Shown here in pieces: positions 1 to 34,770 of a DNA stretch of 46,229 nt. Origin of the DNA: Candidatus Gastranaerophilales bacterium. GTDB lineage: Bacteria > Cyanobacteriota > Vampirovibrionia > Gastranaerophilales > Gastranaerophilaceae. Position 1 is the stretch's first letter, and every line of letters begins with the position of its first letter. The notes beneath the pieces are model-generated. The model searched no databases. It had not been told where the DNA came from and saw only the letters and a program-made list of their open reading frames with translations. The stretch is taken from contig CALUYU010000011.1 of assembly GCA_944325075.1 (NCBI GenBank), positions 1 through 46,229 of the forward strand. Direction: 5' to 3'. Made by a program: the position numbers and the translations under genes.

Positions 1-105
1 TTGGTGAAAAATTTGAAGAAAGCTAATTTTGGTGTTTTCCCTTGTCTCCCTTGGGGTTCGTTCCCCCCCCCCCCCCGTATGCCGTACTATACTTGACTTT
101 CCCAT
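1..105 (-). CDS. Partial 5' end of a pilin-like gene, off the left edge
   Basis: The minus-strand ATG at 105 follows AGGAGG with a 7-nt spacer. The first residues read MGKSSIVRHTGGGG and then meet G14. As written, the frame stays open to the edge. Removing one G gives NEPQGRQG followed by FFKFF, which matches NEPQGRQG and FFKVF in the pilin-like gene at 32241-33365. The one difference between the copies inside the NEPQGRQG codons (CCC versus CCT) is synonymous only in that shifted frame. I therefore infer the start of a second pilin-like gene that is out of frame by one G in this assembly. Its body lies outside the window, so the product is not proven. Confidence 0.4.
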   Translation of the reverse strand, partial: MGKSSIVRHTGGGGERTPRETRENTKISFLQIFHQ

Positions 106-5790: not shown

Positions 5791-5890
5791 AAAAGCGCCT
5801 CCCCCCACTTGGGAAAAGGGGGGATGGGGGGGGGGGGATGGAACAAGATGGACTTTCCCGGATTGTTTCGCCCCCCCCCCCCCTGCCGAA
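5791..5890. repeat. Poly-G and poly-C element
   Basis: C-run, a short spacer and GGGGGG form a strong hairpin (5801-5823), followed by G12 (5826-5837) and C13 (5871-5883), which can pair with each other. No convincing gene covers them. It lies between the MNT gene and the fabD promoter, marking an insertion site in the cluster. It lacks the promoter/RBS/ATG module of the other two homopolymer loci. Confidence 0.7.
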
Positions 5891-31063: not shown

Positions 31064-31080
31064 TAGATATGGAGAAAAAA

Positions 31081-32148
31081 ATGACAGAATTTCAATCGAA
31101 AATAAGAACAATACAATGGATAGACAATTGTTCAAGAATGGTAGATCAAACCCTTGTACCTTATGAATTTAAATATGTTGATATAACAAACGGTCAGGAA
31201 ATGTTTGATGCAATCCGGAATATGATAGTCAGAGGCGCTCCGGCAATAGGAATAGCAGGAGCACACGGGGTTGTGTTATATGCAATAGAACTTGCTAAAG
31301 AAATTACTTCCCGGGAAATATTTATAAAAAAACTTATAGAAAAAGCTGATTACCTGAAAACATCGCGTCCGACAGCAGTAAATTTAATGTGGGCAATTGA
31401 AAAACAAAAAGAAATTATTAAACAATCCAAATCAGATATAAGCGGAATTATAGAAGAACTTAAACAAAATGGAATAAAACTTGAAAACGATGATATAGAA
31501 ATTAATAAAAAAATAGGCGATAACGGGGCCAAGGTAGTACCCAAAGGTGCAACCATTTTAACACACTGCAATGCCGGTGCATTAGCAACAGTAGGTTACG
31601 GAACAGCACTTGGCGTTGTAAGATCAGCATTCGCCAATGATCCGACAATTCAGGTTTTTGCAGATGAAACACGTCCAAGACAACAGGGCGCAAGAATTAC
31701 AACATTAGAACTTACAATGGACGGTATTCCAACAACTCTTATCACAGACGGAATGTGTTCATACTTTATGAAAAAGGGTATGATAGATATGGTTGTAGTA
31801 GGGGCTGACAGAATTGCCGCAAATGGTGATACTGCAAATAAAATAGGAACTTATACAGTAGCTATTGCTGCAAAATATCATAATATACCATTTTATATTG
31901 CAGCTCCTCTTTCAACAATTGATACAAGTATCAAAAGCGGAAACGAAATTGTTATTGAAGAACGCTCAAGGGAAGAGGTAACCCATATCAACGGAAAAAT
32001 TATTTGTGCCCCGGAAGTTAATGTTATTAATCCCGGATTTGATGTAACACCTCATGAGTTAATATCAGGTATCATAACAGAAGTTGGCATACTACGTCCA
32101 AACTATAATGAAACAATAAAAAAAGCTTTTGAAAATAATCTGCCGTAA
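31081..32148 (+). CDS. mtnA: Methylthioribose-1-phosphate isomerase
   Basis: This 355-aa enzyme isomerises 5-methylthioribose-1-phosphate to the ribulose form in methionine salvage. IRNMIVRGAPAIG, the catalytic Cys in THCNAGALATVG and Asp in VVGADRIAANGDTANKIG are all present. I chose ATG at 31081 because GGAG lies 7 nt before it; the ATG at 31069 has no site and would add four residues. The related eIF2B fold could be confused, but these motifs are specific. No other mtn gene is nearby. Confidence 0.93.
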   Translation: MTEFQSKIRTIQWIDNCSRMVDQTLVPYEFKYVDITNGQEMFDAIRNMIVRGAPAIGIAGAHGVVLYAIELAKEITSREIFIKKLIEKADYLKTSRPTAVNLMWAIEKQKEIIKQSKSDISGIIEELKQNGIKLENDDIEINKKIGDNGAKVVPKGATILTHCNAGALATVGYGTALGVVRSAFANDPTIQVFADETRPRQQGARITTLELTMDGIPTTLITDGMCSYFMKKGMIDMVVVGADRIAANGDTANKIGTYTVAIAAKYHNIPFYIAAPLSTIDTSIKSGNEIVIEERSREEVTHINGKIICAPEVNVINPGFDVTPHELISGIITEVGILRPNYNETIKKAFENNLP

Positions 32149-32240: not shown

Positions 32241-33356
32241 TTATTTACAAGTTTTCTTTGTCTGCCAATTCAAATCATCGCATTTAAGATATTCCATATT
32301 TTCTTTGTAGATAACCCATCCTGTACAACCTATTCCACCAAGCCTGTAAGATTTATCCATACATTTCATTTTAAAACCATAATCTTCCACGTTTATATTA
32401 TCCAATCCCGAAGGAATTAGGCCATCTTTTGTTAACAAGAATTCAAATATATCCTTTCCGTAAGTATTCGGTTGTTTATCACCATTTAAATCGATGTGAA
32501 TAGATCCGCAAACATTCCTTAAATATTTTCCAACCCCAATATTCAAGCTACAAGTTGGACTATTTATAAATAGGTGGGCCAATACAGAACCATCTGCAAG
32601 TACAAGCAAATTTTCATATATATCTTTAGCATCTTCAGCTCCGCCTAAATTTTTAGCAGACCAGGAATTGCAATTTTGTTCGGAATGTTTACACTTATAT
32701 ACTGTATTTAAATAAACCGAAAGTTTATCAAGAAAGTAATCTTTTGAATTATCTGATTCATTTTTTGCATCATCCGATTCATCATCATACGCCGATTCAC
32801 TTAGCCCCCATGTATCTAATGTTCCATTATCAAATATTAATCTGTTATAAGCATTACTATAGACAGAATAAACCTTTTTCAATTGAGTAACAGTCTGCTT
32901 TTCCTTGTAATCAGCAATTAATATTGGTAAAGTCATCGCAGCCATAACACCGATTATCCCTAGGGTTATTAGAACCTCGGCAAGAGTAAATGCAACCCTG
33001 CGAGGCGAATGGGGCCTGAGGCACTGCCATATTATGCTGCGCTCTTTAGTATTCAGCGAAATATTATTGTAGGTTGGGGTTTCCACCCCAACATTAGATT
33101 TATTGATATTGAAATCTGTATATTCTTGCAGGTGGTAGGATCCTGAAATACTCTGCGAGCACCCTCCCTTGTAAGCCTCCTTTTCGTCAGCAACAAGAGG
33201 AGCTGCGAGTTCAGGATGACATGGAGAATCTTTTATCAACCTTTTCTCTATGCGGCCCACACAGTTCATTGTAGGTTGGGGTTTCACCCCAACATAATAT
33301 TTATTTATAGCTGATACAGAAAACTTTGATTTGGAGAAAACTTTGAAGAAAGGCAT
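32241..33356 (-). CDS. Type IV pilin-like protein with repeat-built leader
   Basis: The mature part opens AFTLAEVLITLGIIGVMAAM, a class III prepilin signature with Glu at +5 and Ala instead of Gly before the cleavage site, then a helix and a Cys-rich globular region of about 230 residues. The frame stays open upstream to 33365 over palindromic repeats, giving a leader far longer than the usual under 25 residues. No RBS supports ATG 33356 or TTG 33365. A strong RBS and ATG at 33435 are separated by G13 and out of frame by one base. Real start therefore uncertain. Surface or secretion-filament role is inferred. Confidence 0.6.
   Translation of the reverse strand: MPFFKVFSKSKFSVSAINKYYVGVKPQPTMNCVGRIEKRLIKDSPCHPELAAPLVADEKEAYKGGCSQSISGSYHLQEYTDFNINKSNVGVETPTYNNISLNTKERSIIWQCLRPHSPRRVAFTLAEVLITLGIIGVMAAMTLPILIADYKEKQTVTQLKKVYSVYSNAYNRLIFDNGTLDTWGLSESAYDDESDDAKNESDNSKDYFLDKLSVYLNTVYKCKHSEQNCNSWSAKNLGGAEDAKDIYENLLVLADGSVLAHLFINSPTCSLNIGVGKYLRNVCGSIHIDLNGDKQPNTYGKDIFEFLLTKDGLIPSGLDNINVEDYGFKMKCMDKSYRLGGIGCTGWVIYKENMEYLKCDDLNWQTKKTCK
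33068..33293. repeat. Palindromic elements read as protein
   Basis: Two copies of TGTAGGTTGGGGTTT(C)CACCCCAAC (33068-33092 and 33270-33293) flank a CHPEL..SGS-type element (33138-33221). The latter, compared with the copy at 302-331, carries about 57 extra bases between two CTGCGAG direct repeats (33153-33159 and 33203-33209). All three keep the pilin-like frame open on the minus strand. Confidence 0.75.
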
Positions 33357-33485
33357 TTTTGACAAAAACCCTTGTCTCCCTTGAGGTTCGTTACCCCCCC
33401 CCCCCCGTATGCTCTGCTACTATTGACTTTTCCATGTGTTTACCTCCTTTTTCCTCCATTATATACTATTTTTTATTTTTTGCAA
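33327..33485 (-). repeat. Pilin-leader repeat with poly-G tract, copy B
   Basis: Homologous to 1-160 in promoter, RBS, ATG and downstream segment. The tract is G13 then T (33406-33393 on the minus strand) where copy A has G14. From ATG 33435 the frame ends at TAA right after the tract; one G fewer joins the pilin-like frame through NEPQGRQG. Confidence 0.8.
33433..33485 (-). promoter_or_regulatory. Promoter, RBS and ATG of repeat copy B
   Basis: Minus strand: TTGCAA (33480-33485), 16-nt spacer, TATAAT (33458-33463), AGGAGG (33443-33448), 7-nt spacer, ATG (33435). All spacings equal copy A. This is the best transcription and translation start near the pilin-like gene. Confidence 0.6.
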
Positions 33486-34050: not shown

Positions 34051-34770
34051 TTAAGAACTCAATTTAGCAATCTTTACATTAAAAATTGCCTCAATATCAG
34101 TACAGCTCAAAATATATCCAATCCAATCTTCAGGCTTAAAACATCTTATATTAGACAATCGCGGCAAAATCCCCAAAACAGAAATGCCTGTTCTTGTTTC
34201 AATAATTTTTTGGATTTCTCTCACGTCATAATCCAGACTCCTTATAGGACATTCATTGATAATTACTCCCCTTATATATAAAACTTTTTTGCTTACCACG
34301 TTTAAATAATCCAATATTTCTTCAAGTGTTGAGTTCCTCAATGAAGCCACAAAAACTATAGGAATATTCATAGCCTGAATAAGCTCTTCTTCATTAAAAT
34401 TTTTTTCGATCATAGTTTTTAAATCAGATTGCCCGTTAACAAGGAGACATTCATATTTATATGCAACATTCATGTAGTCTTGGAATATAACATTTTTGTC
34501 CATAAACAATTTTTCGCGTTCAAAGACTTCCGGACACAACCGTTTGTTTCTGTACAGATAGGAACAGTAAGTCGTAATATTTCTGTCCATATATTTCATA
34601 AACAACAAATCAGGAGCCTGAATAAATCCGTCCTTAACCCTTGCGCCTGTTTGAACGGGCAGGTACACAGCCGTAGAATATCCAAGGCTCTGCATTGTCG
34701 CAGAAATCCCTCCTGTTATAAATGTTAAGCCCGAATGGGGTTTAATACCTGTTAAATAGATTTCTAACAT
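34051..34770 (-). CDS. BioD-like P-loop protein with degenerate active site
   Basis: This 239-aa protein aligns with dethiobiotin synthase: an N-terminal strand, then TGIKPHSGLT (7-16) where BioD has the TGTDTGVGKT P-loop, a following helix, and YLPVQTGA where BioD has YKPVxxG. Both catalytic lysines (P-loop and the KPV lysine) are replaced by Leu. NGQSDLKTMIE and the VRGVIINECP segment match the general fold. It may be a non-catalytic or ATP-independent relative. It starts 5 bp after the Xer recombinase gene. Confidence 0.65.
   Translation of the reverse strand: MLEIYLTGIKPHSGLTFITGGISATMQSLGYSTAVYLPVQTGARVKDGFIQAPDLLFMKYMDRNITTYCSYLYRNKRLCPEVFEREKLFMDKNVIFQDYMNVAYKYECLLVNGQSDLKTMIEKNFNEEELIQAMNIPIVFVASLRNSTLEEILDYLNVVSKKVLYIRGVIINECPIRSLDYDVREIQKIIETRTGISVLGILPRLSNIRCFKPEDWIGYILSCTDIEAIFNVKIAKLSS

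Follow-up and report, generated by a model that had tools for sequence, protein, structure and literature searches.

Architecture of the locus

The window, by which we mean the entire stretch of 46,229 nucleotides that was analysed, originates from a Candidatus Gastranaerophilales bacterium (Cyanobacteriota) whose own genome, G000, comprises 2.26 Mb in 107 contigs. The locus considered here lies on the minus strand. It begins with a sigma-70-like promoter (33458..33485; hexamers TTGCAA at 33485-33480 and TATAAT at 33463-33458, spacer 16 nt), and continues with the ribosome-binding site AGGAGG (33443..33448), which belongs to a pattern with 31 matches in the own genome at ≤2 mismatches, and with an ATG start codon (33433..33435) that opens the short frame MEKSIVAEHTGGGG. 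When the register is read from this ATG, MEKSIVAEHT is followed by a tract of 13 G (33394..33406) and then immediately by TAA, the assembled product being MEKSIVAEHTGGGG and a stop. With 12 G (or 15), the frame reads through GGGGNEPQGRQGFLSKMPFF into an open reading frame of 374 codons (32241..33365), which yields a total of 397 aa, and with 14 G it stops after 43 codons. By register reading, the assembled tract is thus OFF, and G12 and G15 are the productive lengths.

The 374-codon frame, which forms the downstream half of the putative switch, lacks a convincing ribosome-binding site of its own: no in-frame ATG with such a site was found between the tract and the pilin-like core at the window locus, and the TTG at 33365 has no better candidate than a more distant GGGAGA, itself a piece of the common leader sequence. 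Between the tract and the core lies an extension (32991..33393) that is built in part from dispersed repeats and in which openness of the frame is kept and the amino-acid sequence is not. Inverted repeats of the dispersed type GTTGGGGT..ACCCCAAC are located inside it at 33073-33092 and 33275-33293, and the productive frame stays open across them. The core itself, FTLAEVLITLGIIG, starts at 32990 and together with a variable C-terminal domain comprises 249 aa (32241..32990). A preliminary description, made from the sequence alone, had proposed exactly this anatomy, that is, promoter, AGGAGG, ATG at 33435, G13, immediate TAA and a 374-codon frame one G out of register that is devoid of an RBS-bearing start; it held to the base, and no ATG with a ribosome-binding site is in frame downstream of the tract.

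The promoter score taken alone is unremarkable (7 promoter-like sites in the window versus 6.0 expected in shuffles) and was dropped as evidence. Conservation between copies was used instead: exact TATAAT with a TTG hexamer 16–17 nt upstream is present in 43 of 44 leader copies in G000. G/C runs of ≥9, for which 0.1 matches are expected, occur at 4 places in the window. One of these belongs to a second leader copy of the same family (L024; G14 tract at 63..76, minus strand), which is truncated by the contig start and would be productive with one G less. Two further long G/C runs (5826-5837 and 5871-5883) are intergenic and have no RBS/ATG leader context.

The pilin-like protein and the assembly genes

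The window protein carries a putative class III signal, with A directly preceding FTLAEVLITLGIIGVMAAMTLP; the canonical signal is (G/A)FTLxE followed by about 20 hydrophobic residues. Its profile scores are below cut-off for both TIGR02532 (14.9 bits versus 16.3) and PF07963 (13.2 versus 21.2); the paralog L280 attains the 16.3 of TIGR02532. Type IV pilins have a long N-terminal helix and a C-terminal domain rich in beta strands; an AlphaFold2 model of the window protein (mean pLDDT 67) consists of a helix comprising residues 3-55 and subsequent strands, and a fold search of the PDB gave no match at E≤0.001. The short cleaved leader of such proteins, usually <30 residues, is not present, since about 150 residues stand ahead of the core in the productive frame, and we therefore refer to the protein as pilin-like and not as a proven pilin. 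Among the aligned paralogs the C-terminal parts are strongly divergent (30–42% identity to the window protein). The genome encodes a prepilin peptidase (PF01478; C20:11276-11671) as well as assembly ATPases of the PilB/PilT type (PF00437; C37, C12 and C57).

A leader family dispersed across the genome

When G000 was searched with 201 bases of the leader, 126 first-look candidates yielded 40 scored matches with 82–100% identity, and at least 46 distinct, near-identical leaders with promoter, RBS, ATG and poly-G tract were collected; a loose pattern (GGAGG, ATG, ≥9 G) gave 86 matches, some of them possibly counted twice. The material analysed consists of the stretches around leader copies and not of the whole genome. 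The core FTLAEVLITLGIIG occurs exactly 126 times in G000. Among the first 30 cores by coordinate, 18 have an upstream poly-G leader, 6 are truncated by contig ends, no leader is visible for 5, and one has a conventional start, so that 18 of the 24 assessable cores stand behind a poly-G leader. A single-locus oddity is ruled out by this family, which the preliminary description had missed along with the second copy at 63-76, and it thereby underestimated the scale of the phenomenon. Among named records that contain this leader, the MAG CALUYR01, likewise Candidatus Gastranaerophilales, is the closest, and no copy of the window leader was found in the viral contigs searched.

Two peculiarities of the own genome may be mentioned separately. 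Four cores (L143, L149, L157, L160) carry a repeat-built extension without leader, promoter or start and are possible silent cassettes, and four other loci (L144, L152, L161, L165) contain tandem FTLAEV motifs (AFTLAEVFSPYY..SPRKVAFTLAEVLITLG), as though the core had served several times as the junction between cassettes.

The window cassette is flanked by two genes (31069-32148 and 34051-34770) that are direct neighbours in the genomes G006, G009 and G010; in G000, about 1.9 kb including the pilin are inserted between them, and in G011 a different pilin is found on the same side of the first flanking gene. Cassettes therefore seem to come and go. No poly-G tract is present in the 513 nt upstream at the corresponding site of G011, and hence no same-locus comparison of tracts could be made.

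One productive register per copy

In an unconditioned count of the full-length leader loci of G000 and CALUYR, 39 of 43 lead into the pilin core by one, and only one, register. Among about 100 fused copies read in about 15 genomes, none has more than one register open. The extensions of 35 complete copies contain 0 stops in 4240 codons of the productive frame, versus 232 and 255 in the other two frames, and only about 1.4 of the 35 copies would be expected to be open by chance; both figures are conditioned on copies having an open route. At the assembled length, stops are located directly or a few codons after the tract. A third-codon-position bias, which might have served as proof of coding, is absent from the extension (66, 48 and 41 substitutions by position), and the argument thus rests on conserved openness. 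That openness alone is conserved fits a peptide that would be translated and then cut off by prepilin peptidase, a role inferred here from the presence of the peptidase gene.

Distribution and alternative couplings

Of 188 genomes of the family to which the bacterium belongs, 74 contain the poly-G leader pattern (tallied by hand from the table). Outside the family, only two of 101 other genomes of the class contain one match each, and a reversed control pattern gives a similar background. Leaders differ in sequence across species and are alike within a species. With the pattern used, no poly-G leader was seen in G001-G003, G005 and G008-G010, all of the same genus, and gain or loss inside the genus seems to be frequent. 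In G284, an Acyl_transf_3 gene (L311, 189-1274; PF01757, E 1.2e-23) is found behind a poly-G leader of this style; the switch is therefore not limited to pilins.

Two further arrangements do not rely on fusion. In the type III leaders of G000 (L150, L166, L172), one register constitutes an ORF of 82–85 codons whose TGA overlaps the pilin ATG (ATGA) in three of three cases, the other registers stop after 17–23 codons, and all three loci are OFF as assembled. We infer from this layout translational coupling via the ATGA overlap. In G021 (within L173-L192), a poly-G leader peptide is followed by a terminator-like hairpin, CCGTG...CACGG, and by a separately started pilin gene. Each of the 16 hairpin leaders has a register that would bring the ribosome to the hairpin (32–44 codons; L178 reads on through the pilin), and where translation along this register ends there, the stop codon is located between -11 and +18 nt relative to the start of the hairpin. 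Stops in the remaining registers are met about 50–65 nt upstream of it, except in L185 and L188, in which a second register also ends near the hairpin. The layout suggests that the register of the leader decides whether the ribosome reaches the hairpin, with termination itself being likewise inferred. Coupled and attenuator leaders provide an independent argument that what is read out is the register of the G tract.

One might object that the leader is a mere dispersed repeat or mobile promoter residing beside pilin genes, and that the copies represent decaying silent donor cassettes for recombination, like pilS of Neisseria. This is supported by (i) the 46 or more near-identical leaders, (ii) the 5 of 30 sampled cores without leader or start, (iii) duplicated FTLAEV motifs, which suggest recombination at the core, and (iv) insertion of the window cassette between two genes that G006, G009 and G010 have side by side. 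However, decay would bring stops into the extension, whereas the productive frame is open in 39 of 43 loci, and other species possess unrelated leaders of the same design. We consider this explanation very unlikely, although it is conceivable that recombination acts in addition to phase switching.

Tract lengths and assembled states

Across 46 copies in G000 the tracts comprise 11–15 G, with one of 18, and 13 is the commonest length (29 of 53 tracts read exactly 13); the productive register is assembled in 9 of 45 classifiable copies. In CALUYR, tracts range from 11 to 14 G and 13 of 28 copies are productive. Paralog pairs with a flank divergence <4% differ in tract length in five of eight cases, and lengths likewise vary in G004, G012 and G014. 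Overall, 22 of 125 copies are assembled ON, which is below one third (p about 7e-5; paralogs are not independent). The shift required to restore the productive frame differs in direction between genomes, and both -1 and +1 occur within each of G000, G004 and G012.

Other genomes are strikingly uniform: 13 of 13 tracts are G10 in G033, 10 of 10 are G9 in G301, and 21 of 22 are G9 in G255. Every fused copy fetched from these genomes (10, 4 and 6, respectively) is OFF by the same +1, that is, one G short, and the same relation holds for 5 of 6 fused copies in G150. One may suspect that constancy arises as an artefact of collecting long tracts only. This is not supported by a re-search of four genomes down to G7, which revealed no shorter tracts in G033, G301 and G255. 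Longer tracts tend to be more variable, but the trend is not significant (Spearman 0.50, p 0.14). Nor is there an indication that hypermutability is driven by lost mismatch repair, MutL having been found in 14 of 15 genomes tested.

Short-read tract lengths of 8–13 or more are error-prone, and any single assembled length may be wrong by one. The preliminary description had considered sequencing error in the window tract to be the main rival explanation. Taken generally, this would mean that the G counts are wrong and that the genes are in frame as a rule. In its favour, Illumina errors and contig breaks are documented at poly-G ≥8 (PMC4235727), many G000 leaders are located at contig ends, and more than half of the G000 tracts read exactly 13. 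Yet the same error would be needed at dozens of loci in many independent genomes and in differing directions, and it would leave unexplained both the existence and persistence of long, pure G runs in leaders and the fact that coupled and attenuator leaders, too, have a single productive register. Error at one tract is no longer sufficient because dozens of copies share the design, and we regard a general miscount as very improbable.

A more serious alternative is programmed recoding, in which the tract is a fixed slippery site. A -1 shift by ribosomes (or a +1 shift at the stop next to it), or the gain or loss of a G by RNA polymerase, would then allow all pilins to be made at a low and constant level regardless of the length of the DNA tract. 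It is supported by (i) the constant G9/G10 tracts with the same +1 in all fetched fused copies of G033, G255 and G301 and in five of six of G150, (ii) the position of the stops, which at assembled length immediately follow the tract or lie within a few codons of it, and (iii) retention of the register in copies whose tract edge is altered (L172 versus L166; L187; L017). Against it stand the varying lengths in G000, CALUYR, G004, G012 and G014 and the differing directions of the required shift. Moreover, about 7 nt suffice for ribosomal slippage, yet the tracts reach 13–15. A shift during transcription is less likely, given that no slippage of RNA polymerase was seen on G/C runs in Escherichia coli and Buchnera (PMC5574713). 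Programmed frameshifting calls for a fixed length and shift direction, which are constant in G033, G255 and G301 but not in G000, G004, G012 and G014. Finally, a G10 locus of Bifidobacterium breve is likewise of one length in 93% of molecules, although replication slippage controls it (PMC9187656), and constancy of the consensus is therefore weak evidence. As a general explanation we consider recoding unlikely.

Probable slipped-strand phase variation of a pilin-like repertoire

In our view, the evidence is best explained by a very large type IV pilin-like repertoire that undergoes slipped-strand phase variation and whose genes are mostly OFF in the assembled consensus. We consider this likely. 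What the sequences show directly is the anatomy, the size of the family, the single productive register of each copy, the differing tract lengths of paralogs and the distribution; slippage within a population, ON/OFF expression, surface display and processing by the peptidase are inferred. A short dispersed leader would carry promoter, Shine-Dalgarno sequence and ATG, and its G13 tract would act as the slipped-strand phase switch. The pilin-like protein would be made only in cells with a productive tract length (12 or 15). A tract of 13 or 14 G would bring translation to a stop 0 to about 30 codons further on, and no pilin would be produced. In the ON state, the long N-terminal extension would presumably be cut off by prepilin peptidase before FTLAEV. 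Dozens of pilin-like genes that differ in their C-terminal domains share this leader, and most of them are OFF in the assembled state; each cell would therefore express a small, shifting selection of its own from a repertoire of about 100.

The locus satisfies three sequence-level criteria for a translational contingency locus of the simple-sequence-repeat type, the fourth, mixed tract lengths within a population with heritable ON/OFF expression, being inferred: (i) a pure repeat, G13, stands between the start codon (ATG at 33435) and the body of the ORF (32241-33365), (ii) one register of three gives the full product, and (iii) tract length varies between copies and genomes. The third point is qualified by the constant lengths in G033 and G301 and the nearly constant ones in G255. 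Constant G9/G10 with a uniform +1 OFF counts against a simple stochastic model, since a freely drifting switch would not predict such uniformity, and programmed frameshifting is therefore not excluded. The low share of copies assembled ON (22 of 125) is a further point against it. In these three species, either the consensus is a common OFF length accompanied by an ON minority, or frameshifting is programmed. The claim that slippage at the G tract switches the pilin is strongly supported by the comparison because about 100 fused copies have one productive register, lengths vary between close paralogs, and two further one-register architectures exist; slippage in DNA versus that of ribosome or polymerase remains undecided, and actual switching is inferred.

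It is tempting to speculate further that a family-wide system for surface display exists, in which each genome would have up to about 100 type IV pilin-like genes that can be switched separately and are kept alike by a self-homogenising poly-G leader. The commonest length would be OFF and one slip would turn a gene ON, the tract being wired into fusion, translational coupling or attenuation across leaders and lineages to yield cell-specific combinations. We see as much reason to doubt this bolder reading as to accept it. If phase variation is confirmed, the repertoire would count as one of the largest known sets of phase-variable surface proteins, and this in commensals; single cells could display different surface proteins, and it would be explained why gene finders would see pilins without proper starts. 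For gut metagenome reads, the question is then raised whether a consensus-OFF and minority-ON pattern is found at scores of loci simultaneously.

Comparison with known systems

No report of phase variation in this gut lineage was found in the literature searched, but several systems share parts of the design. The opa genes of Neisseria comprise about 11 dispersed surface-protein genes, each with its own stochastic phase switch (PMC3745409), and resemble the window family in being dispersed and individually switched, with about ten times fewer loci. They encode outer-membrane proteins, and their repeat in the leader consists of pentamers in the signal sequence. Campylobacter jejuni possesses 12–29 poly-G contingency loci of mixed function (PMC4235727, PMC4965091), which likewise are poly-G tracts that switch surface functions in an AT-rich genome; in contrast to the window family, these are not known to share a leader. 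The pilE/pilS system of Neisseria is a large pilin repertoire with a constant N-terminus and a variable C-terminus, as is the window family. However, it employs one expression locus and gene conversion, whereas here many loci each have their own promoter and putative switch.

The G021 leaders resemble pil1 of Streptococcus gallolyticus, one of the two closest precedents, for which leader-peptide attenuation with this layout was shown experimentally (Danne 2014, PMC3894217). Both have a repeat tract in a leader peptide gene, and in pil1 only an out-of-frame change gives the long peptide, with a stop in or near the terminator hairpin. Unlike pil1, which has GCAGA repeats at one locus, G021 has poly-G in 16 analysed copies; the window gene, being a fusion, does not meet the definition of pil1-type attenuation.

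The other of the two closest precedents is found in the gut commensal B. breve UCC2003, in which replication slippage at G tracts controls the sortase pili bbr_0113 and bbr_1889 (Penno 2022, PMC9187656), the G10 locus being G10 in 93.4% and G9 in 6.5% of molecules (PMC9187656). The systems share a promoter, a Shine-Dalgarno sequence and an ATG on a short upstream ORF, a G tract (G10/G11 in B. breve), a pilin ORF without its own Shine-Dalgarno sequence, and an OFF reference state in a gut commensal; in B. breve, other lengths are present in part of the population. They differ in that B. breve has two loci encoding sortase pilins, whereas here dozens of type IV pilin-like loci stand behind one shared leader and related leaders exhibit two further modes of coupling, and in that switching was measured in B. 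breve and is inferred here. The window gene thus appears to work like the pili of B. breve, by G-tract phase variation with switching within populations being inferred, but on a very large type IV pilin-like family. Hitherto, G-tract switching of pili was known at single loci; here, one leader serves dozens of pilin-like genes, in many genomes of a gut lineage.
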